DNA from: Proteromonas lacertae
Taxonomy: Eukaryota; Sar; Bigyra; Opalinata; Proteromonadidae
Direction of reading: 5' to 3'
Length of the DNA: 64,000 nucleotides
Assembly (NCBI GenBank): GCA_002245135.1
Contig: NGBS01000303.1
Coordinates: 115,379 to 179,378, forward strand
Part shown: piece after piece, positions 1 to 63,246 of the stretch
Position numbering within the stretch: position 1 is the first letter of the stretch
How the letters are laid out: each line of letters starts with the position of its first letter
Notes under the pieces: model-generated
The model's database searches: none
What the model was told of the DNA's origin: nothing
What the model saw: only the letters and a program-made list of their open reading frames with translations
Made by a program: the position numbers and the translations under genes

Positions 1-159
1 GTTTTTTTATAGAATGATATATATAGGTTTATATTTTGTTTATGTATATGATTGTATAATTAGAAACACATACTACAAAAGAAGTCAGCTAATATTAACT
101 ACAGATAGGTTTTACCGAAAAGTCATGACAGATTTATTTTTTGAAAACAGTTCAATTAA

Positions 160-8008: not shown

Positions 8009-10040
8009 ATGAACAAGGATAATGAAAAGTATTTAAGTAATAGATTATAATTCCATAGCATCGTCATTGGCTCTCGTCAATCATCAGTAAATATTTGTAT
8101 ATTATTTAAATATAGCTAATTGAACTTAATTTTCCCTCTCAAACATCTCTAAATAGCGCAGATATATTACCAAGTCCAGAGAGTGTGAATTCTTCAGATA
8201 AAACACCTACAGAACAGATTATCAGTCATGATAAAACGAAATACTGCATAACTCCCACTGTAAGTAAATTTATAACATCAAAGCTTTCAACACAACCAGA
8301 ATATCACATCAATAGATCTCATTCATTACCCAATTTAAGTTTAGAATTTACTGAAAAGAAGAAAGAAAAAAGACATCAAAGAAGCCCATCTGTGACAAAT
8401 GCTTACCTTGCTGAATCAGTAGGTGCTTCATTGAACTTTACATCACAATTCTTCAGGAAAATATACTTAACCTCCTCAGATTATAGAGCAATGAAACCAA
8501 TTGGCTCGCCGAAGGTAAGGCATTCACATATACCCTATACAATATCTGAAATATCTGAATCATTATTATCTAGAGCATGTGATATGATAGATTGTGATGG
8601 ATATTTGGTATTTATGACTGATACAGATGGAATCTATTTGAGATGTAATAGTGTATGGAGAAAAACTGATTCTACACTGAAACAGCCAAATTTTATACTT
8701 AGACAGTATATAATATATTGTTATGTTTTATAGAGATGCTTTATCTCATTGGTATCCAAATTACAAGAACAGTATTGACTTAATAATGAATCAGAATCAA
8801 ACCCTTGATTTTATAGATTTAAACGTAAATGACAAATTTATACGAAAATTAAAAGAAACAATGAATTGTCCAATTCATTCATTATTAATGACACCCTTTA
8901 TTGATCCTCAATTTGCTAATAATAGAAATGAGAATATTATAGGATTGATAATATTTATTAATAAGATTAAAAATACAGAATGTTTATTACCAAATACTCC
9001 AAGACTCAACAGATTAGAAAGTTGCAATGTCACTTTACCACGATTTACCATAACGGATCTATTTTTATGTAAATCTTTTGGAATATTTGTGTCATTGTCA
9101 TTGACTGATAACAGCAACAACAACAACAACAACAATAATAATAACACTCCTTTATCTCGTTCTAATTCTATTACTCCTTTTGGTTTAAGGAATAACAATG
9201 TTAGAGATAAGATATTAGTAACATTAGCATCAGTAGCAGAATTATTACATACTCCAAGTGATGAATCAACAATGAGTCATCAATTAATAAATACAGCAAA
9301 TAGTTTGGTACAAAGCTTGAAATTGACATTAAATCAAAGTATGATATTAATTTATTATATTATTTTTTATTAGATAATCAAAAGAATTTCACTTCTAATA
9401 ATTCTAGCAATAATAGTAATGGAACAACGAGAGAGTTTTTATCTTCACCAGGTAGTACATCCTCTTCATTTGGTGATATTGAACTATACAAAGCCTTCAG
9501 TCAATTATGTGAAAAAATTGTATTAATAGAACATTCCAAACAATCAGTATTACCACCAATTAGTGAGAATAATGGAAATACAGATCAATTCTTAATAAGC
9601 AAATTAACATGTTCAATTATTCAACCAGAAGATGGGTTGAATTATCCAATGAAATTAGAAACTGTTAGTAGGCATGAAGTATTGAGTGAAAGGAGTAGTA
9701 AAATAGAATTTAAATTAGAAGGTGAAAATTCACCACTTATTTTATTTCATAGTATTATTTGTCCAGTTATTATCAAATTACAATATGGAGAGAAAGATGT
9801 AATGATTGGAAGAGTGATTTTGAATCCCACTACTGAATCTTTACCAATTATTGATATACCAATTAGCACAGCAAAATTTTGTATAATATATATATTTATA
9901 ATTTATAATTAGCAAGTTCATTCTTAAGTGGTACTGCCAAAATATGTCAAAAACACAAAGAAAAACAACAATGGTATTTATATAAAGTTATATGTACACT
10001 GCGTGGAACATTCGTGAATAGGTTTATTGAAAATGTTTAA
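8009..10040 (+). CDS. GAF-like domain protein
   Basis: Six exons, introns at 8029-8058, 8087-8115, 8706-8733, 9339-9373 and 9881-9912 (28-35 nt), giving about 625 aa. After a Ser-rich N-terminal region with possible phosphosites (RSHSLPNL, RSPSVTNA), residues roughly 160-330 look like a GAF domain: helix TISEISESLLSRACDMID, then CDGYLVFMTD, then a return strand NIIGLIIFINKI. An Asn run (about 9119-9141) interrupts the C-terminal part. GAF domains bind small molecules or mediate dimerisation; no kinase, cyclase or phosphodiesterase domain follows, so the output is unknown. The first exon is only 20 nt. Confidence 0.55.
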
Positions 10041-10149
10041 ATTACATTTATTTATTCTATTAACTACATATTAATATTATTAAATATCTAGATTTTATAT
10101 ACTATCTGATTTTAATAAGTTATGATATTGATTTTGTTGTGTTTTTTTG
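10041..10149. other. Convergent 3' intergenic region
   Basis: About 109 bp of AT-rich DNA between the ends of two convergent genes; only A/T-rich 3'-end-like sequence is seen. Confidence 0.4.
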
Positions 10150-10859
10150 TTAAATTATAACACATACACCACTACTATTTATTTTCATCTTTAATAGGTT
10201 TAATTCCATTAAATAGTTGTGTTTCTCTTCGACATCTCCTTCAAATAGTGTGTATAGGAAAAAAATAACATCATCTTTTAGTTTTATTTTTAGAATCTCA
10301 TTTTTATGGCATTTCAATACTCCTATAGAAAATAACAATATATCATCCCATCCATTATCTAGGAAATGAGTCCATAACTCTTTTATTTCATCAAATGTAA
10401 TTAATCTTGATAATGTATACAGAGATATCCAATGTCTAACAAATACAAAGTGCACCAAGTCCATCTCATTCGATTCAAAATACTGTAGAAAGCTTCTATC
10501 TATTTGGTAAAAAAATCTTTTGAAATGTATTGCTAGTGTATCTAAATACGGCAAATCTTGTTGAAACAAACCATACATATTGTATTTGTGATTTGTTAAT
10601 ATTTTATGAAATAAAAGCATGGCTGTTGTTTCATTTGATAAAAGTAATAAAAAACCAGCTATAAAATTCATTCCTTGAACATAACCGATCTAGCATACAC
10701 ATTAACGAAAAAATATAATACAACTGGATGATTTAAAGCTGCTATTCGCAAAATATTTTCTAGAGACTTTTTCTGTTCAATATTTAACTGAGTAGGAAAT
10801 GTACGAGGAATATCAACCTCAATCTGCCGTTGAACATCTTCAGGAAGCTTTCTATTCAT
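10150..10859 (-). CDS. Short TBC-domain (Rab GAP-like) protein
   Basis: Two exons joined across a 32-nt intron (10721-10690) give 225 aa. The TBC signature is clear: QIEVDIPRTFP (the IxxDxxR arginine-finger motif) followed across the intron by GYVQGMNFIAG (the YxQ glutamine-finger motif), so both catalytic fingers of a Rab GTPase-activating protein are present. The remaining helical C-terminal part matches the second half of a TBC domain. What is missing is the usual first ~60 residues with the WRxxxxG element; no upstream exon was found in the ~100 bp before the next gene, so either the protein is N-terminally short or an exon is hidden. Target Rab unknown. Confidence 0.72.
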
Positions 10860-10958
10860 CTTTAAAAACGAAAGAAAAAATCAAACATGTTTGTTTCAAA
10901 ATAGATTATAAAAAACACAAAAAAGAAGAATAGAATAATATTAATTATAATACAGTAT

Positions 10959-13900
10959 TTATTCATTTATATGGACATGAATATTTTTCTTTTCTACCTT
11001 CTTAAGTATCTCTCTCGTTGATATTAATTTCACATTATAAGTTGTACTATAATATATAAATAAATATATATTTTACTCATTATTAACTGATATAATTGTT
11101 CCATGCCTCCATATATTATCTTTCAATATATCTACATCATCATTCACTGAATAATTAGGTTTTTGATTATATTTCATTTTATCCTTTTCTTTTTTTGTTA
11201 GAAATGGAGTTTTGTCTTCATTAACCCCTACATCACTCAGTTTTTCTTTATTCTTCTTACTACTACTACAACAGCAGCAGCATTTATCATAGCAGGAACT
11301 GAAACAGCTAAAGATAAAAGAAAAACAAGTAGTAAACAACAACAAAATCTTCGCCCAAATCAATGAAAAACTACTACTGTGATTATCATTATTGTTTTTA
11401 TCGTTACCTACATCTACTATAATTTCTTTATTTTTTCTTTTTCCTTTTTCTTTTGGTGTTCTTTGCGATATTTTAGATTTATTATTTATCAACGGTTCAT
11501 TCTCGCTTGGAATTGCTTGACTGTTCTTCATTTCTTTATACTTGTTATAAGAATCTACATACTCATTATAAACATTAATCTTTTTAAATTCATTTGGAAA
11601 ATCTTTATTCATCTTCTTATAACAGTAATTATAATAATCTTTGATTAGAGTGTCAATTTCCTATTAATAATAATAACTATCACTATATATATACATTTAA
11701 TTTATCATCTAATTCATTTAATGTTTTTCCTTTTATCTTTTCATCAAATCTAGACAATTTATTATCTATCACTCCTATTCTCTTTATATCATTACATTCA
11801 TCCACTCTTTCTTCATATCTTTTATTAATTATTTCCTATTAGAAAAAAATTAGGATATAAATATCATACTTTAACTTCTTCTCTAATTTCTTTTAAATCA
11901 TTAATCACATTTTGTGATGGTTTTGACACTTTTAATCTTTCAAAATCATCTTTTCTTTCTAGATTTTTTGTAAATGGTTTTATCTCATTTCTATTCATTC
12001 ATTATAATAGAATTATATAATCTATACTCCAATTCTCTCTTTTCTCTTATCAGTTTACATTCATTTCTAACTTTTCTTATCATTTCATCAATTAAAGGAA
12101 ATTCTTTAGGAGAATATTCTCTTTTTTTAAACTCTTTATAACTTTCTGTCTCCTTTTCTTCCTTTGATAATTTATTCAACTTGTCAACTACATCATATAC
12201 TTTCTTCATATTTTGAGTATTACTGTTAATTCTACTTATAATTTCATCTATTTTTTCTGGTTCAATACTCTCAACAGATTCTGTTATATTTTTGAAGTTA
12301 TTTTTGTAGTTTTTTACATTTTCTTCATAATCCTTTTTCTCCTTTTCATATTCTTCTAAAACCTTCTTATGTTGATTTACTTTTGCCTATTAAAATATGA
12401 TTGAAAGTAATATACATTTAGATTACTTACAATACTAATAACTTCTTTTCCTTTAATAGAGTCTAACAATTTATCACCATATCCTCTGTAAATATTCTTC
12501 ATGACATTAACTATATTATTATATCTTTTGTTTGATTCAATTGAATTTTCTAATTCATTGATATAACCTTCCATTTCCTTAATGTTCATAGCTGTTCTTT
12601 TATGATTAATATTTAATATATTCATAAAACTACCGCTCATAGTTTTAATTTTGATCTGTAATTCATTCATTTTCTCTTTCAATGTTTTCATATTATCAAA
12701 TTCATTTTTGAATATATCAATTGAATCTGAATAATCTTTCACATCTGATTCTTTTATCATTTGATTTGAATAAACCATTTCTTTTTCTTTTCCAATAATA
12801 TCATCATAATTATCAGATTTACAATCATTATAGTTCCTTTCATATTCATCAGATAACTTATAAAATTCGTCACTATGAATAAATAATACAATAAATCTAT
12901 TTATATTATACTATTTGTTATTAAATAATTCACAGTTATTCATTATCTTCTTCATATCATCATAAATAAATTTCAAATCATCTATTGACTTTGATTTTGT
13001 TTGAGGATTTCTAATTGTGCTAAAGGTTTCTTCTCTTCTTGAAATATAACCACTCTTGATCTTAGATTCTAATCTGTCAAATTCATAACTAAAAAACAAT
13101 ATAATGATAGTAATACCATAAAGCTTCAATATCATTCAAAATACTAGATTTCTCTCTCAATAAATCAGTTTCTTGCATAAAATTATTAATTATTCCATTC
13201 AAATTATTAACATAATCTTTTTCCTCTTTACTTAATTCATATTTATCACATTTCTGAACATTATCACTTTCAGTCATCTTACCAGAATTTAAATTATATA
13301 TCATTCTACATGGATTGTTACTAGGTACTGTATATGAATATTTCCACCAATTTTTCTTTATTGCAGCATAATAACTAATACCTGAACATAATGCTTCATC
13401 CTGATTTAGTGTAAATATCAAATTTCCACTTGATTGCAGTTTATTCTTCACATAATCATTTAATATATCTTTAATACACGGTATTCTTGTTGTTCCTCCA
13501 ACTATTACTATATTCATCTTTGATTTTACAGATTCATCTACATTTTCTAAACATTTATCTAACAATCCACAAATCACAGTTTCACCTTGTAAATCTTCCT
13601 TTACAATTCTTGCTATATCATCCACTGAAACTCTTGTTGAAAAATCTTCATAATCATTATCTCCATCAGGTATAATATCATTAATTTCTGCATTTATATC
13701 ACTAGCTCCTGCTGCAGAGAGTTTTTCTTTTATATTTACAGTTGTTTTTAATATCTTCACATGATTTTTCATATTTCTTGGATTCTTTTCTTCTAAGTTT
13801 AATTTATCACCATGTTCAGTAGTTATTCTATCTCTTAATATTTTCATTATATTATTATCTACTAATTCTCCATTCAATTCTGTCGTATAAGCTACACTTT

Positions 13901-14725
13901 TTACATCACAATAATTCTATACATTTCATAATAAGTAATTCATATATATATATATATATATATACAGGAGAATAATGACAATAAATTGCTGTGAAACAGT
14001 GATGTCCAATATCTACAATTATTATATCATAACCTTCGTCAGTAATTCGACTATTATTTTCATAACCATACGCTAAAGAAACTGCTAAATATTCAGGAAT
14101 AAAGTCATCCAATCTAGCTTTCTTTGATACTTCATAAAAATATTTAATATGAGATAATTCTTTAGCTGTGTAATACGGAGGATACTGTTTATATGATAAA
14201 TATATAATAATTTCATACAGTCAAAACAATTTGAGGATTTGGATTGTTGATAATCGACAGATAATGAATTGCACAGAAAAAGTAAAATACATCCAATTCA
14301 TATGGTTCTTTATTCATCTAGCAATATAAAACAGGTAAGTAATACTACAACAGCAATATGACCATTGTTATTTTCAAGATCTAAAGTTGGATAAGACTTT
14401 TTCACTGAATCTAATACTGTGCTATCTGTGAGAAAGTATTCTTTTGGACATAGCAGAATGTTCTTGTTGTTTCGGACGTACTGTAAAAATAGACTTATGT
14501 AAATACTTGGTTTTCAGCAACTTGTCCAAAGATTATTTGGTCATTATTCTTTCCAACATAAGTACTAGATTAATATACTAAATAAATATACACACTAATC
14601 TTCTTAGAGAGTGAGTTTTCGACTATTCGACCATAACCTAACTTTGGGTCTGCGTAGGATATTACAATGTTTTTCTTGCCAACATCCACTCCATAAAATC
14701 TTTCTTCAACATTTTTCTCAGCCAT
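10959..14725 (-). CDS. Hsp70-like ATPase fused to coiled coil, membrane anchor and Tudor/SH3-like domain
   Basis: About a dozen exons, roughly 1100 aa. The N-terminal ~400 residues follow an Hsp70/Hsp110 nucleotide-binding domain: FYGVDVGKKN (phosphate-1, normally DLGTT), GYDIIIVDIGHHC (phosphate-2, normally DLGGGT), IVIVGGTTRIPCIKDIL (adenosine motif, well kept) and NQDEALCSG. There is no substrate-binding beta domain; the chain passes straight into long charged coiled coil (about 13260-11700). Near the C-terminus a hydrophobic stretch (IWAKILLLFTTCFSFIFSCF) is followed by KCCCCC, a likely membrane anchor and palmitoylation site. A last exon after intron 11076-11047 completes a small beta module (VDILKDNIWRHGTII...). 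The degenerate phosphate loops suggest weak or no ATP hydrolysis. Start at the Met at 14725; a Met at 14767 is also in frame. Confidence 0.62.
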
Positions 14726-14804: not shown

Positions 14805-17800
14805 ATGTCTAAATCAGCAGGTATTAAATTATCATTTATTTTACAATTTGTTAGGTGAAATACTTAATCAAATTCTCAAGACATACAACAGCACTTCAAT
14901 TTGCTGTCCTGGAGCTCATAAAAAAAGAAACGTATAAGTAATACATTTATTAAATCCATTAGGATGAAAAGGTAGAAAAATTATTGAGAGAGCTCAACAA
15001 ATTGGCTTTAGCTGGAACAATTAGTATTTATTCTATATTTTTACTATCTGTAGAGTTGGAACGTCAGGAAATAATAGATCTGTTCCAACTATTGTTGGAT
15101 GATTTGATTATTATTAACAACAAAATTCATGTATTTCTTAAAACAGTCTATTTTTAGATTTTGAAGATAATTGGTTTAATATCAAGAACTCACATTCAAT
15201 ATTTTTTGGATATTGACAATATCTGGAATCATTTGTTCAATTTCTTCAATGATCCTACAATAGCAGAGAGTACGCTTACTACAATTGAAGCATTACTACC
15301 AGAGTATGAATTAAAATATTATAGTCAATAGTAAACCTTCCATTGAATCATTTTTAACAACAGATGGTGTAGATATCGTATAATTTCCTATTTATGATGA
15401 ATAGATTGTCAAATTATCATACCAACCATCTTATAAAGCTATTAGCATTGATATCATGAAGAGAATATGTTACAGTTCATTTTCTGTGGAGATGATTAAG
15501 TATAATTAGAATTATATATCCTTTCATAGATATAAACAATTATCCTACCGTCATTTAAAGTCATTATTATCGGGTAACTCAAATGATATCAAGTATTTTG
15601 CTATAAACGCCTTAAGATACATATTTACTCCATTTCCACGATATGAGATATTATCACTATATAATCCAGGTATTGAGTGTAATATGAAAATTAATATAAG
15701 TAATGATAATGACTCAAAAGAAACATCAATGTGTGTTGTAACGGTATAATTTTTAATAATTATATATTTTATTAGAGTTTTGCCGTTCATGAGTTTATAC
15801 TAGATAATAAGGACTGTTATATCCCAAATAGAATATTCTATTTATCCAATTATATTCAATCAAACATATCTTCTTCATCCATTACCTTTACCTATCAAGA
15901 TCATGTGATTGTCACATTCACTCCAGAAGAAAGTGAGAAGAAACATGGTGGAAGTTGGAAATCATTTAGAAAATCATTATCAGCTGCAATTAACAACTTT
16001 CAACAGGAGATTAATCCATCTTGTTCAAATTCACAAGGTATATATATAATAATAATTTTAAACAGATTTAATTCGTTATTACAACACTCAATCTCCAATT
16101 CATACCTATTTTAGAGATAATAAAATCTTATTTGATTTAATCAGTTTTCTCAACATTACTGATATGAACAACAACAATAATAATCAAGTTGTAACTCCAA
16201 AGAATAACGATATAAGATCACCAGATATAGCTAAATTAAAGAGAACAGTAGATTTGAAGAAGTCCACTAGATCTAGTATTACATCATCATTAAGTACAAA
16301 GGAAGTTCCATCTCCACGTGGTACAATGATGTTGGAAGAGAATTCATTCAATTTATGCCCAGAAAATATTGTTGATGTATATATATTTATATATATTTAT
16401 TTGTTGTTTAGTTGACTTATTTATTAAGTAATTTCAGTATGTTTTTCTATGAAATCCCACCTACTCATCCATATGAAGTTGAAAGTAGAATTTTGAACTT
16501 ATTAAATTGTGATAAAAATTACCATAAGAAGTGGTGGGAAAGTCAAACTAATGTGAAAGATCCTGATTTTCAAGCTATTACACCTATTTATATTGATGAT
16601 TTCTATTATCAATTAACTAAAGCTGTTTATATTACATTAGCTACAGTATAATATATATATATATATATATATAATATAGTATACAATTCATTCATCTTTA
16701 CAGTTTGAAGAGATACAGTCGTTACTCATTCCAAATATGATTGAGATATTAAAAGATGAAATATGTTTCACAAATGGTACAGTTCCCTTTGTAATAAGAA
16801 CATTTGCTAATATAATAATCTGTTTTAAACTACAAATAGATAAATTGGTATATGATAAAGATGAAAATATCATTTCATTACTCAATATTCTCGTAAAAAC
16901 AAAGAAATTCCAAGAAGATTATATTATAACGGATATAGTAATAATTATCTCATCATTAACCAATAATATCATCACAAATCTAAAACCAACAATTATTGAA
17001 CAATACAATACCATTGGATTTTGTTCATATTTGCTGAAACACTATTCTGATGAACAATTCCATGAGGATTGCGTTGTTGGATTATCCTCTTTCTTTACCA
17101 ACAGTCAAATTGAAAGACACTTATCAATTGAAGATTTAATAAACAGTTTAAAAACTGGACTAGTTTCTATTATACAAATCATCATTAAAGAGATGAAAAT
17201 GAGAATAGAAACAGATTATAATTGTAATGAATATTTAGATTATATCAATGACTTATGTGATACATTTTTTTCATTAGTTTTAATAATAAGAGGAAATAAG
17301 AATCAAATAGATAGTGAAATTCCAGCAACTTTGTCATTAATCATTTATTACATATTAGCTTATACTCAATCTGATCCAAGTATCATTGAACACTTATATA
17401 CAGTTGGAAACCTAAAAGAAGGTGAAGCATGGAAACATTTTATAGTGATGATGTTTGATGAAGCTTATCCAATCAAATTTCGAGGAATTATTATTGATAT
17501 TTTATGCTATTTTGGACAAAGAGAGACTGAATTTAGAAAGAAGATTGTTACATCTAAAATACCAGGAATAAGTGATGTATTCTTACAAACATTTGATAAT
17601 TGTCAAAAAGAAAAAGATTCGTTTCTAAAAGGTCAATATTGTAAGTTTTTGGCAAGATATTTCAATGGTCCAGAATATGTAAAAGAATTACAAAAATATA
17701 AAATACAACAACTATTATTAGATTGTTTTAAATCAGTCAAACCTCAACAAATCAAAGAAGAATTATCTTCTTTTGATAATGATAATGGAATAAGTGGATT

Positions 17801-20800
17801 TATATTGCTACAATCATTATTTGTGAGAGATAATGAAGGATTACAGAAATTTATGAAAAATGATAATACAATCTTCAAAATGATTTTATATACACCATCC
17901 TCAAAAAGCTTGTTAGTTCAAACCTCAGGAATTGAGTTTTATATTAGTTTAACTAAAGATTCTCAGTGTGTTCATACTTTATTTGATATATATCCTAATT
18001 GGATTAAATTAATGACTGAATTAACTCACCACAAAGATTTTTACACTAGAAATTATAGTATATTGTGCTTAAGACAATTATTTTTGAATTCTAATGGTGA
18101 AGATTCGATTGTTAATAAATTAAATATTAATCAATTAACTATACTTTCTTATGCTAATGATTCTGTAGTACAGATGATTGTATTTAAGGTATTGAATGTA
18201 AAGCTTGAGACAGGCTTGTTCCCAATGTATGATCATGTTGATTATCCAATCAAAAAAGGTGTAATATTATACAAAACGGCTACTTTATTGGGACTTAAGA
18301 ATACTTGGCCTAAATGTTATGCAATATTGACATGTGATCATATATTATATTTATATAAAGAAAAATCAGAAGAACCAAAAATGAAATTATATTTAAAAGG
18401 ATGTGAATATTCTAATCCATTATCTGATGATCCAGTTATAACAATCAGTAATAAAAACATGTCAGTTCAATTAAAAGGTATAAATAAAGAATCAACCATA
18501 GAATGGGGATTATATATCTCTAAATCAACTGAAGGAACTTATTACATTACTTCCACTGAAAGAAATATGGATAATACTCCAAAAGATACGAAATTAACAA
18601 GAAGAAAGACAATGGATAGCAATACAGTAACAAATCCATTGATTTTTGTAAGTAATTGCCCTACTGCGCAGTTAAGTGAATTAGATATCAAACAATTTAT
18701 TCAAGCAATAAAGATGTTACCAGAAACAAAAGATTTGAATCATCAATTACAATTAGCTCAATTTGTGCATTTAATTAGTTATTGTATAGAATATATATAT
18801 ATATATATTATTAGATTCAATGTTGGAAGAGGATCAAATACAACAATTAGGAGATATTGTCTGTCAAATGTTGAAGAAGAACTTGGAATATGTTGAAAAT
18901 AAGAATAAAAAACTAACACCATCACCAGCTATATATTATGAAATAATGTCTAATAATGTATGAATATATATATTATTGTAAATAGTGTAATTATGACAAT
19001 ATAACCATGTGTCCATTATGTTTATCATTTAACTATGTAAATAGTGAAATGTGTGATTTCTGTGGAATTAATATGAAGAAAACAAAATTCCATACAAAAG
19101 ATAGAAGTGAGAATTTTATATTACGCTTAGAGATGAGATCATTGAAAGAAAATCATTTGGAGAATCTATTGAATGTAATTTCTATTCATTATATTAAAGC
19201 ACTTGTGCTATTATCTGATAGATTATGTTTAGAAAGAGAAGTATATATTTATTATTATTATTATTATATTAATAGTATTGCCCACCTACAAGTTTAATTA
19301 CAGTATTAAGTAGTTATAATTTTTCATGTTATACATTACCTTATTTTATATATTCATATCCATTAATATTGTATATATTATTATTATTATTATATTATTA
19401 TTATATTATTTAGAAATGAATTGATAAAACATGATGAACATCCAAATGTTGATTTATATTTCTTACCATTTTTATCAATATTAAATGCTTATAAAGACAT
19501 TAGCCCTGTTTTCTTCAATTCTGCATTCTTAATGTTTAGATATATGTTATATGAACTACAGAAGAGTGATAAGAAATTAGCATATGATTTATCCAAAACT
19601 AATTGTATATATATATATCCATTTTTTTAAATTTATAAATAGTCTTGAGTATTATGAAAGAGAAATTTAAAGTCTTAATTATTGAACATAAAGAATTATT
19701 CTTTGAAATAATGGATAGTTTATATGGTTCAAGTGATTTAAGTGAATGTAAAAACACATTTTTACTTGATGTAATTGATTCTACAATCAAATATGATGAA
19801 TTACACAAAGTGTCAATAAATGCATTGAATGGTTTTTATAAGAAAGGAAAATCTTATCCAGAGAGAATATTAACGAGTAAAAAAGAGAAAGACACTCCAG
19901 CTGTGATAAATATAATGAGTTTTTATGAAAAAATAAAGAATAAAATTGAATTATCAGATTTTGATATTAATTTCTGTATTCATTGTATTAAGATATTATA
20001 TGGAACAGCTGAAGGCAATAATAATAATAATAACCAAACAGATAATCAATTATTTATACTTAATGGAAATGTAGAAATAATAGTTACATATATATGCAAC
20101 ATAATTATAAAACCAAATGAAAATGAGTTATTAAAAATCCATTTAAAAACACTGACAGAGTTAGTGAAAGATAATAATGTTATGGTTTTATATATATTAT
20201 CGTTGAATGGTAATTGCTTCTCCTACTTTATTATGGATGTTTTTAACTTAGTAACAATGCAAAAATTAGAAGAATATTATATTCCATTTTTATCATTCTT
20301 TAAGGAGTTTTGTTTTAATCCATATGCATGTTATTCTATGTATCAAGCTGGCTTGTTAGGTGCAGTAGTAGAAATAATTGATAATTGTTGTTCTGATAGT
20401 GAAAACAGTGAGAAAATATTAATTTCAGCGATGAAGTTGATAATACAAACATATCGAAATGATTATTGTTATAAACTATTCCCATTGTATAATATGAAAA
20501 AACTAAAAAACTTAGTCACTTTTGGTTTACAACATAATACATTAGACTATATGAGTTTGTTATTTGAACTATTTGTTTTATCGACTGAATATTCTCATCA
20601 ATTAGTGTTAATGTTGGTTAATTGTGAAGAATTAATACCACTAGCAGTGAATTATTCAAACAGAAAAGATCAATTAGGAAATTTAAGTAGACAATTGTTA
20701 GGTAATATTATTTCAAATAGAGGTTTAGCGTCTAAATATACAATATTTTATATATCTACTCCTTCATTATTTATATTATTAAATTCATCAGATCCAAATG

Positions 20801-60650: not shown

Positions 60651-61076
60651 GCATTATCTTATTGATTATGAATGTTTTACTTGTTTTATTTGGATTTTGA
60701 GTATGGTGACGTGTTACCGTTACGCGTAGGACGGTAATAAATAACACTCTTGTTCTACTTTAAATATCAATTTTCATTATATTCTGTAATTTATTTATCA
60801 CTATAAAACTCTTAACATGTTTATGGAATATCACTGTTATTATGGTTGAAGAAATGATTTTATGAATCTATTTCTTTTGATATTACAACAATGAATTAAC
60901 AGAAGGTATTTTTATGACATAATTATCTCTTAAACAACTCAAATTTTTAAAAATAAAAAAATCTTTTCGGTTACACATTATTGATGAAACACATAACCGT
61001 TTCTTTGATTATCAAATCATTTATAAATTACTTTACTAGCATTTTCGTTTTTGAAATACATAATTAGATTTAGACT
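60651..61076 (+). promoter_or_regulatory. Intergenic region with CRE/MCB-like island
   Basis: About 426 bp, mostly very AT-rich. At 60704-60737 a rare GC-richer patch holds TGACGT (CRE half), ACGCGT (MCB core) and an inverted pair TTACCGT...ACGGTAA with a 10-base loop. It lies downstream of the transporter and about 340 bp upstream of the next gene. The rest shows nothing specific. Confidence 0.4.
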
Positions 61077-61503
61077 ATGGCTGTATATTATTCAATTTAT
61101 AGATATATAGGGTTGTGATGTTAGATGTGTTATCCACGTTTGTGGTATAATCCTTTCACTTTGTTACCTTCTTAATGCTATTCTCATCATTATTGATTGT
61201 CATTCCACTAATTGCATTATATGGATGGTAATTGATATTATTCTCTTCATCGTTGTAGCAGGTTTAGAAGCGACAGAGTTATTGGCATGTGCCATCTGTC
61301 ACTGCCTTGACTGTTGTTTACAATACCTTAAACCAGCAATTTGGAGATTTGTATTTTATTTAGTCTTGAACTTTACTTGGGGTGGTATTGGAGCAGGTGG
61401 TTTTGGATGGATACCAGGAGTTTGTGCTATAATCATGTGTATTCTGTATGGATATCTTGCATTCTGTGAAGGAGGAAGTTTCCATGTAAATACCAAGACA
61501 TAA
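61077..61503 (+). CDS. Small Cys-rich multi-spanning membrane protein
   Basis: A 6-nt first exon (Met-Ala) is joined across intron 61083-61110 (28 nt) to one long exon, giving about 132 aa. The chain has three or four hydrophobic segments and many Cys (CDVRCVIHVCG, ELLACAICHCLDCC). The last part (LNFTWGGIG...FGWIPGVCAIIMCILYGY) resembles the Pmp3/UPF0057 pattern NLLLTLLGWIPGVIHALYVL, so a small plasma-membrane or ER protein is likely. Family link is tentative; the mini-exon start is the only way I found to reach an ATG in frame, although the ATG at 61225 would give a shorter product. Confidence 0.5.
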
Positions 61504-61638
61504 ACTAGTATTATTCTTTTCTTTTGATATTAGAAAATGTTTTGTAGTTGGGGTTGTTAAATAAGTTAAATAGAAATAATTCATCTATATATCGCTTATA
61601 ATCAAGATAAAAAATTCAAATTTTTTAAACGATCAAAA

Positions 61639-63246
61639 ATGTTTCACATCTATATTGTCATATTTATTTTGTTTCTCTCCTTCAAAAAAGTCAATTCGTT
61701 AAGGTTGAGTGGTAAAATAGTCACTCAAGACAGCTGGTATGTTGTAACGAGGTATTGTTTCAAAAGTTATCCAAATATATATGATTCTATTGTATACTCA
61801 TTTTCTAAATGGTCTGCACCTTACCTTAACAACCTATTCTTATTTAACACCTCCGTTACATTAGATGATATACTGACTTCCCCTCTATCATGTTATGATA
61901 AAATGGAGTTATCTTGGGTATATATTATAAAATATTGTTATAAAAATAGACATACTCCAGACATGACAAATACAAAGTAACACCATTTCCTTTATATATG
62001 AGATCTGGTGAAGTGCAATGTTTTTTCATAGTAATTGGCAATTGTAATACATCATCACAAAGTAGTATGAGTCAAAGAGACATAGATACAGAGTATTTGT
62101 TTCTATTAAGAAATGGTAAGAATGAATGGGATTATGAGTTATCCTATGATGAACGAGGAATGTTGATATTTTCGATATTATTCTTTTTAATCGAAATATT
62201 TCTAACATTTGGAAGTTTTATGATAAGTAATAATTTAAGAAGAATCGAAAAATATCATCCAACCGTAAAAATCTTAAACTATTCAATCTACATACAAGAT
62301 TGTAGTTGTTTATTTTTACTGTTATATTATTTATTTTACAGTGATTCAGGAAAGATATTTCCATTATTACGATTATTTTCATCATTGTTTTATACAATGA
62401 GTGAGAGTTTAATAATTCTATTATTTATCTTAATTGGTAAAGGTTGGACAATAATTCGTCGAAAAATCAGTCGAAATGGTCGAGTTCGAATCTCTGTTTA
62501 TTACAGTATCTATTTAGGAATATCTATGGTTTCAATCCTATATCGAGAAATAATGAATAAACCATATAATAATAATATATTCTATTATACTCTTCCTGGT
62601 TACTTTTTGATGGTATTAAAATTTGTTGTAATAATTTGGTATATATATTCGATATTTACAACCTTTCGTCAAAGTCCTCGAAAACATCATTTTTATTACA
62701 AATTTATCAGTTTATGTATGTTATATTCCTATTGAATATAATCTTTGTATTATCAATTGATAAAAGTTCTGAGATGAATCGATTTTTATATTATTATATA
62801 AGTCATTTTGTATTATTATTTTCAATCCAATTTGTGATGTTATTATTATATAATCCAAATACTCACTGCAACAGTTCATTTCCATTTCATCAACGACTTC
62901 ATGAAACGTGTGATACAAATATAATAGTCAATTTGGTAAAGCTAGTAATATATAATTAACATAAAAATAAATATATGTTAATATATATTAAATAGATATA
63001 ATAACTGATTTAACTAAAGAACTCAATCGACAATTTACATTATTAAAAGATGTTTCAAAGGATGTTAGAAAATGTTTAGGTGAGAATTTGCAAAGTCTTC
63101 GTTCTTGTATAATTATAGAAGATGAAATTACTAATGAAGTAACTCCAATATTGAATGGAAATAGTGAAAGTAATTATATTGATGGTAGTGTTGATGTGAG
63201 AAGAACACCATTTCCTAGTCCTGAATCACATATTTTTGTTTTATAA
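61639..63246 (+). CDS. GPR180/TMEM145-like seven-TM protein, left copy
   Basis: Signal peptide (MFHIYIVIFILFLSFKKVNS), a lumenal domain, then seven hydrophobic segments, about 505 aa with introns at about 61919-61949 and 62936-62998. The core LSYDERGMLIFSILFFLIE, then IGKGWTIIRRKI, matches the GOST-family members GPR180 and TMEM145 (intimal-thickness related receptors). Frame fails twice compared with the inverted copy at the window edge: TTATATTCC at 62721-62729 lacks one T, and 62920-62935 lacks a net base. The last exon (DVSKDVRKCLGENL...) is open to a stop at 63246. Either the left copy carries consensus errors or it is a recent pseudogene. Confidence 0.65.
62633..63051 (+). repeat. Inverted repeat, left arm
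   Basis: This 419-bp stretch is repeated almost identically in reverse at 63578-64000. It covers the last transmembrane part of the GPR180-like gene, its final intron and the start of its last exon. Similarity stops sharply after AAAAGAT, although both downstream sequences still code for related tails. Confidence 0.85.

Follow-up and report, generated by a model that had tools for sequence, protein, structure and literature searches.

The window, a 64,000-nucleotide stretch of the Proteromonas lacertae genome, contains a minus-strand gene that almost certainly descends from the Hsp110 of this lineage, with an anatomy up to the lid that sequence comparison places at the same high level of confidence. 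The predicted protein (Table 1) pairs an Hsp110-type nucleotide-binding domain (NBD) with an alpha-lid, and continues into a long helical arm, a probable membrane anchor and a small C-terminal module. It is best read as a membrane-tethered, Hsp110-type recruiter of Hsp70 or nucleotide-exchange adaptor, to which we assign a probability of roughly one half.

Table 1 Features of the Hsp110-derived gene, with positions counted from the first letter of the window
Feature	Residues	Window positions	Strand	Basis
Whole coding region, 13 exons	1-1117	10959..14725	-	Manual splice and Viterbi models, shuffles, retraining; last exon ambiguous
Exons 1-6		14725-14592, 14564-14507, 14480-14349, 14317-14219, 14184-13966, 13916-13117	-	
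Exons 7-13		13088-12912, 12872-12431, 12386-12028, 11990-11870, 11835-11695, 11660-11077, 11046-10959	-	
Hsp110-type NBD	1-402	13353..14725	-	Pfam HSP70, profile, trees, paralogue fold
Short linker with W.Y motif (W405, Y407), replacing the lost SBD-beta	403-450	13209..13352	-	E388-N475 spacing
Retained Hsp110 alpha-lid helix	about 451-500	13031..13208	-	Weak profile stretch, column table
Long amphipathic helical arm	about 501-935	11538..13030	-	Helical periodicity; start kept in orthologue P0001
Hydrophobic segment and cysteine string, probable membrane anchor	992-1025	11268..11369	-	Hydropathy scan, sequence
Possible Agenet/Tudor/SH3-like module, split by the last intron (11047-11076)	1059-1117	10962..11168	-	Sub-threshold Agenet

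Hsp110 ancestry and loss of the substrate-binding beta domain

The Hsp70-type NBD claimed in the first-pass annotation is borne out by a Pfam HSP70 match over residues 12-402 (E 1.9e-26), the sole domain listed for the protein at E up to 1. A PDB sequence search with residues 1-540 returned the NBDs of Hsp70 and Sse1, the furthest residue reached being 401 among the best 60 matches listed. The Hsp70 fold was checked on the paralogue C1176 (26% identical), for which it was obtained: the predicted structure has a pLDDT of 73.7 and a pTM of 0.75, and the best four Foldseek matches are all Sse1, the first with a TMq of 0.76. The head is nevertheless not a canonical Hsp70, as it shows no Hsp70 grouping, no GGGT second phosphate loop and no substrate-binding beta domain (SBD-beta). 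Both phosphate loops pointed out earlier, DVGKK and DIGHHC, are indeed present, but the second, described as changed, resembles the DIGHSS of Sse1. By eye, neither a signal peptide nor an ER-retention end of the Grp170 type was seen, the protein starting with MAEKNVEERFYGVD and ending, in the ambiguous last exon, with HVHINE.

While the first-pass annotation treated the head as that of a generic Hsp70 relative, the NBD is Hsp110-derived by both profile and trees. A profile of 7 family heads scored Sse1 at 217.7 bits (E 2.9e-63), compared with 178.6 for the best Hsp70. For wider comparison 18 family rows were used, omitting the near copies L018, L022 and L026 and the loci L058 and L043, which had no usable model; 9 of the 18 may be incomplete at their N-termini or tails because they derive from briefly extended fetches whose ends were forced open (L054-L057, L059-L063). 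In a 29-row tree the family groups with the organism's own Hsp110 and Sse1 at 100/100, and with its own Hsp110 at 100/99; the paralogue C1160 splits off first, the 17 other family rows being held together at 100/100. A 25-row tree, which included P0007, P0009 and P0010 (left out of the 29-row tree), likewise joins the family and Hsp110 at 100/100, the order within being left open. It also groups the paralogue C107 with the window gene (96/90), which the 29-row tree does not resolve. A generic Hsp70 origin is ruled out by the profile ranking together with both trees.

The organism's canonical Hsp110 (L033, contig C573; HSP70 profile match from 35 to 597) is thus sister to the family, but, as read by eye, differs from it in keeping the SBD-beta and in an acidic insertion, and shows no hydrophobic anchor. 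C1160 (L054) has kept the NBD and a long lid, has lost the SBD-beta and carries no long arm; at 39% identity to the organism's own Hsp110 over 409 columns, it looks like a surviving intermediate.

Absence of the SBD-beta had been noted from the window sequence, and is confirmed by residue spacing. Window N475 and E478 are the equivalents of Sse1 N572 and E575, and only 87 residues separate E388 from N475, where Sse1 has 202. The equivalents of Sse1 E370 and N572 are 53-88 residues apart in all 18 family rows, again as compared with 202 in Sse1. The lid of Sse1 is matched, weakly, by a second stretch of the family profile (14.3 bits, i-Evalue 0.13). Among 76 well-filled columns beyond residue 400 of the window protein, the best conserved five are W405, Y407, N475, L487 and E478, and beyond Y407 a seven-row alignment is invariant at N475 and E478 alone. 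Both lid residues, N and E, are retained in 12 of the 18 family rows; in the other 6, one or both have changed. On this sequence comparison, it is the SBD-beta alone that has been excised, the NBD being joined via the short linker straight to the alpha-lid.

Helical arm, probable anchor and a putative Hsp70-directed head

The stretch of residues 481-935 has a high content of K, E and N, and its helical amphipathicity was equalled in 0 of 300 composition shuffles. Of the coiled coil of about 500 residues proposed previously, the strong helical amphipathicity therefore stands, but not a single continuous coiled coil, the first 50 or so residues aligning with the Hsp110 lid. As the region contains 7 prolines and its period drifts between 3.0 and 3.7, long helical arm is the safer label. 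The hydrophobic segment with a cysteine cluster, a probable anchor, is present as described: the best 19-residue mean hydropathy is 1.92 at residues 994-1012, with K998 inside (windows every 3 residues), within a hydrophobic stretch around residues 992-1017, and cysteines occur at 1006, 1013, 1017 and, consecutively, at 1021-1025. Association with a membrane is likely, and we consider attachment of the protein to one somewhat more probable than a soluble state; the cysteine string is a possible S-acylation site.

The small beta module proposed for the C-terminus fared less well. Its Agenet/Tudor likeness is sub-threshold (E 0.014, 16.3 bits against a curated cut-off of 27), and fold prediction of the C-terminal piece was uninformative (pLDDT 43). 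Matches of this piece to designed armadillo repeats in the PDB were dismissed as chance, the best E of 0.0022 being summed over repeats with no single stretch significant. A similar module suspected by eye in the paralogue C107 was likewise rejected, as Pfam and genome searches gave no significant link. No homologue of the C-terminal exon was found at E 1 among 133 candidates scored.

Several Sse1 residues are reported to matter for Hsp70 contact. One study reports that N572Y E575A leaves 20% of Hsp70 binding and 5% of exchange activity (PMC11479587), another that A280T, N281A, N572Y and E575A substitutions impair Hsp70 interaction (PMC5440654), and the mutant clusters listed in a third include T365V N367S and E554A M557S L558S (PMC4664246). 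Among the 18 family rows, the NBD contact sites are kept as A280 in 15, N281 in 1, T365 in 15 and N367 in all 18, and the lid sites as N572 in 14 and E575 in 13. E554 (4/17), M557 (3/17) and L558 (0/16) are poorly kept. The window protein has A, A, T, N, N and E at A280, N281, T365, N367, N572 and E575, its equivalents of the kept sites being A282, T383, N385, N475 and E478. Such a pattern would be expected of an Hsp70-binding surface that is mostly preserved, with most, but not all, of the Sse1 positions retained. It falls short of proof, bearing in mind that the rows are mutually related and that the lid N and E also occur in Hsp70, in which they could pack against its own NBD.

Under the adaptor reading, the head would fold like ATP-bound Hsp110 and engage cytosolic Hsp70 via an Sse1-type NBD-and-lid surface, thereby promoting or holding a nucleotide state of Hsp70. 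The arm, hydrophobic segment and cysteine string would place this Hsp70-directed activity at a membrane, and the window protein would be one of many adaptors with a common head and different tails. Unfolded substrate should not be held by the protein itself, because the SBD-beta is gone. Possible partners are at hand, an Hsp70 search of the own genome having given 65 matches (54 candidates scored). In PMC5440654, Sse1 artificially anchored to the ER is reported to support neither growth nor the reactivation of cytosolic aggregates, so a naturally anchored form would be expected to act locally and not to stand in for free Hsp110. A canonical Hsp110 is retained in the genome besides the putatively anchored family member.

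The closest rival, tentative though it is, takes up the first-pass idea of a non-hydrolysing scaffold: an ATP-dependent structural element in which a nucleotide-binding, Hsp110-derived head, switchable or merely stable, sits on a membrane-anchored helical spacer and makes no contact with Hsp70. ATP-site residues are, as had been suspected, largely kept in the window protein (D14, K77, E172, D199, G355, R358), making nucleotide binding plausible, while the phosphate-loop threonines of Hsp70 are replaced. Across family rows, D8 is D in 8/9, K69 is K in 8/12, D203 is D in 17/17 and R346 is R in 18/18; the D174 site, E in Hsp70, is E in only 9/17, and the position following DxG carries Y in 15/17 rows, G in Hsp70 and H in both Sse1 and the window protein. 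A scaffold would also accommodate the 6 of 18 rows with altered lid contacts and the long branches of deep paralogues in the 29-row tree. Against a pure scaffold, which would have no use for them, the positions tied to Hsp70 binding rank with the best conserved ones beyond the NBD; even so, they could also be kept by the lid packing against the protein's own NBD. With the contact positions kept, an Hsp70-engaging adaptor is at least as likely as a non-hydrolysing scaffold.

Paralogue family, outside relatives and gene model

Searching the own genome (50.22 Mb, 1181 contigs) with the window protein revealed many further places with 28-37% identity over NBD parts, and a search with the intronless paralogue C1176 gave 70 matches, including a few true Hsp70 or Hsp110 genes. 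Both searches are lower bounds. When merged by script, leaving out the own Hsp110 as well as contigs C139 and C1067, they yield 64 places, counting the window gene itself, spread over 42 contigs, the places not having been checked singly. The true gene number may be lower than 64, because near-identical pairs such as C279/C675 (99.2% over 4154 bases) and C552/C675 (97.8% over 3623) may be alleles. The 11 modelled members share GYENN, KEKLSA.GA(D/S), GG(S/T).RI and T(L/I)N.DE, and all but one of them the W.Y motif; GYENN varies in some further members and is thus not universal. As the head recurs in many paralogues, the window gene belongs to an expanded family. Of the layout, for which the first-pass annotation knew of no described precedent, the head is not unique; for the anchor with its Tudor-like tail, a search of the own genome gave no paralogue (3 candidates scored, next best E 0.32).

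Several pairs of loci have DNA that is 84-94% identical across the head, or head and lid, followed by tails without a match: L015/L018 (1504 bases), L018/L019 (1306), L015/L019 (1059) and L024/L026 (1630). L028/L055 align over just 722 bases at 87%, L055 being a short fetch. Two of these blocks end near the W.Y motif. Other pairs are alike throughout. Heads that stay alike while the tails differ would be accounted for by gene conversion among the heads, and likewise by tail exchange. One possible, if doubtful, extension of the adaptor reading is a modular addressing system, in which a common Hsp70-engaging, substrate-free head is combined with many tails, the window gene carrying a membrane address.

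Outside the assembly, a single relative was identified, the 348-residue open frame P0001 from a public collection (tag lgn, 14 member sequences, one contig). It is identical to the window protein at 228 of 340 aligned positions (67%), spanning window residues 215-539 and hence the second NBD half, linker, lid and arm start, and groups with it at 100/100 in the 29-row tree; beyond this span, from the remainder of the arm through the anchor to the tail, no outside support was found. In the own genome, no place besides the window gene matched at P0001-like identity. The orthologue has an 11-residue insertion at the site of intron 6, which we read as a probable unspliced in-frame intron, and then runs on into the arm start. 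The arrangement of head, linker, lid and arm start in one protein is thus also found outside this assembly. In a search of 5.8 billion proteins, none of 7994 scored candidates was a full-length homologue at E 0.001. The family profile gave 11 protein matches at E 1e-5 among 7998 scored; ten were read by eye as DnaK/Hsp70-type and set aside, P0001 alone having the family motifs. A scan of viral contigs gave 8 pattern matches, of which 0 were confirmed as relatives.

Variable tails also raise the idea of a fast-evolving recognition or conflict family, in which a signalling or assembly role falls to the head, and the tails serve to recognise targets that keep changing, invaders for example. The many loci, with more than one on several contigs (C552, C675, C165, C88), and the pairs with similar heads but unmatched tails would be in keeping with this. 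We nonetheless consider it unlikely, since L020, a near copy of L015, still matches its tail at 62% over 156 bases, the window gene is single and conserved with its orthologue into the arm start, and Pfam names only HSP70 in the window protein.

The interval flagged in the window corresponds to exactly one gene in our manual model, with the ATG at 14725 and the stop ending at 10959; the window has a GC content of about 22-30% per 2 kb. The coding strand was read by eye in three frames and spliced at GT-AG sites, giving 12 introns, all GT-AG, of 26-49 nt. A codon-usage Viterbi model reproduced these exons save for one 3-nt shift. Retrained without this gene, it gave the same first 12 exons (with the 3-nt shift) and a different last exon (10993-10963), and the very C-terminus is therefore less certain. 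The part 3' of exon 6 has a coding score of 152.6, compared with at most 13.2 in 40 dinucleotide shuffles (142.7 and at most 16.5, respectively, for the retrained model). That an Hsp110-like gene was wrongly joined to a separate downstream coiled-coil or membrane gene is very improbable: the last exon is indeed ambiguous and several paralogue models were fused with neighbours and trimmed by eye, but exon 6 alone carries the second NBD half, linker and lid start, the lid-arm junction is kept in P0001, the twelve introns and the coding score are consistent, and the modelled paralogues likewise run from the head into helical-looking tails.

Known systems and significance

The adaptor reading can be set against several known chaperones. 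With Hsp110 (yeast Sse1, PDB 3d2e/2qxl/3c7n) the window protein shares the sequence and fold of the NBD, the DIGH-type second phosphate loop, the TLN.DE motif, an alpha-lid with N..E and its position in the tree. Unlike Sse1, it lacks the SBD-beta, has a long helical arm, a probable membrane anchor and a C-terminal module, and belongs to a large gene family. Membrane-anchored co-chaperones of Hsp70 include the BAG exchange factor Snl1 of yeast and the J protein known as cysteine string protein. These resemble the proposed adaptor in that an Hsp70 regulator is placed at a membrane, with a cysteine string near the anchor; in contrast, the window protein has no BAG or J domain (Pfam, E up to 1). 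HSPA13/Stch and HSPA12 are Hsp70 relatives without a normal substrate domain, and are similar in having an NBD without SBD-beta; we know of no helical arm in either. In the parts of the open-licence literature covered, no description of an SBD-beta-less Hsp110 family, or of such chaperone targeting, was found, which is weak evidence of absence.

Hsp110 is usually viewed as exchange factor and substrate holder together. Removal of the SBD-beta with retention of NBD and lid would mean that evolution has cleanly parted the two functions, with C1160 as a surviving intermediate, and which Hsp110 functions need substrate binding becomes directly testable through this family. The gene represents an unusual offshoot of Hsp110 and suggests a mode of chaperone targeting; if true, a large set of Hsp70s would be sent to specific membranes and structures by different tails.

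Apparent intermediate form and other paralogues

In the tree, the first branch within the family is formed by locus L054, which appears to be an intermediate form. Among the other paralogues, the modelled tail of L025+L031 continues into a stretch that is beta-helix-like in appearance; in this model, the stretch may be an adjoining gene that was joined on. The tail of L028 was found to bear a likeness to a nuclear-localisation signal.

Paralogues in the P. lacertae genome (G000) and neighbours of the window gene
Feature	Location	Strand	Description
L054	C1160:314600-316800		Hsp110-like NBD and long lid; SBD-beta and long arm both missing
L025+L031	C245, ~8585-13825		Modelled tail runs into C/N-rich stretch with short repeats
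L028	C165, ~60688-62586		Tail strongly acidic, then lysine/arginine-rich
Rab-GAP TBC domain (E 1.9e-11)	window 10153-10671	minus	Exon of downstream neighbour
PH domain (E 8.7e-6)	window 16737-18896	plus	Long open frame; neighbour on opposite side from TBC exon

Other Hsp70s and near-identical contig stretches

The genome gave 65 Hsp70 matches, with 54 candidates scored. Another expanded group, of Hsp70s, was observed at L006, L007 and L008 (contigs C279, C139 and C171), with open frames of approximately 520-610 aa in which the NBD and SBD-beta are present and the alpha-lid is apparently missing. Stretches of 3.6-4.2 kb that are 97.8-99.2% identical occur on separate contigs (C279/C675 and C552/C675), and are possibly alleles that were assembled separately.

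Heads and tails of the family

Comparison of L015/L018/L019, L024/L026 and L028/L055 revealed similar DNA in the heads, while no tail match was obtained. Two of the block ends of head similarity fall close to the W.Y motif of the linker. The combination of similar heads with unmatched tails may reflect gene conversion or an exchange of tails.
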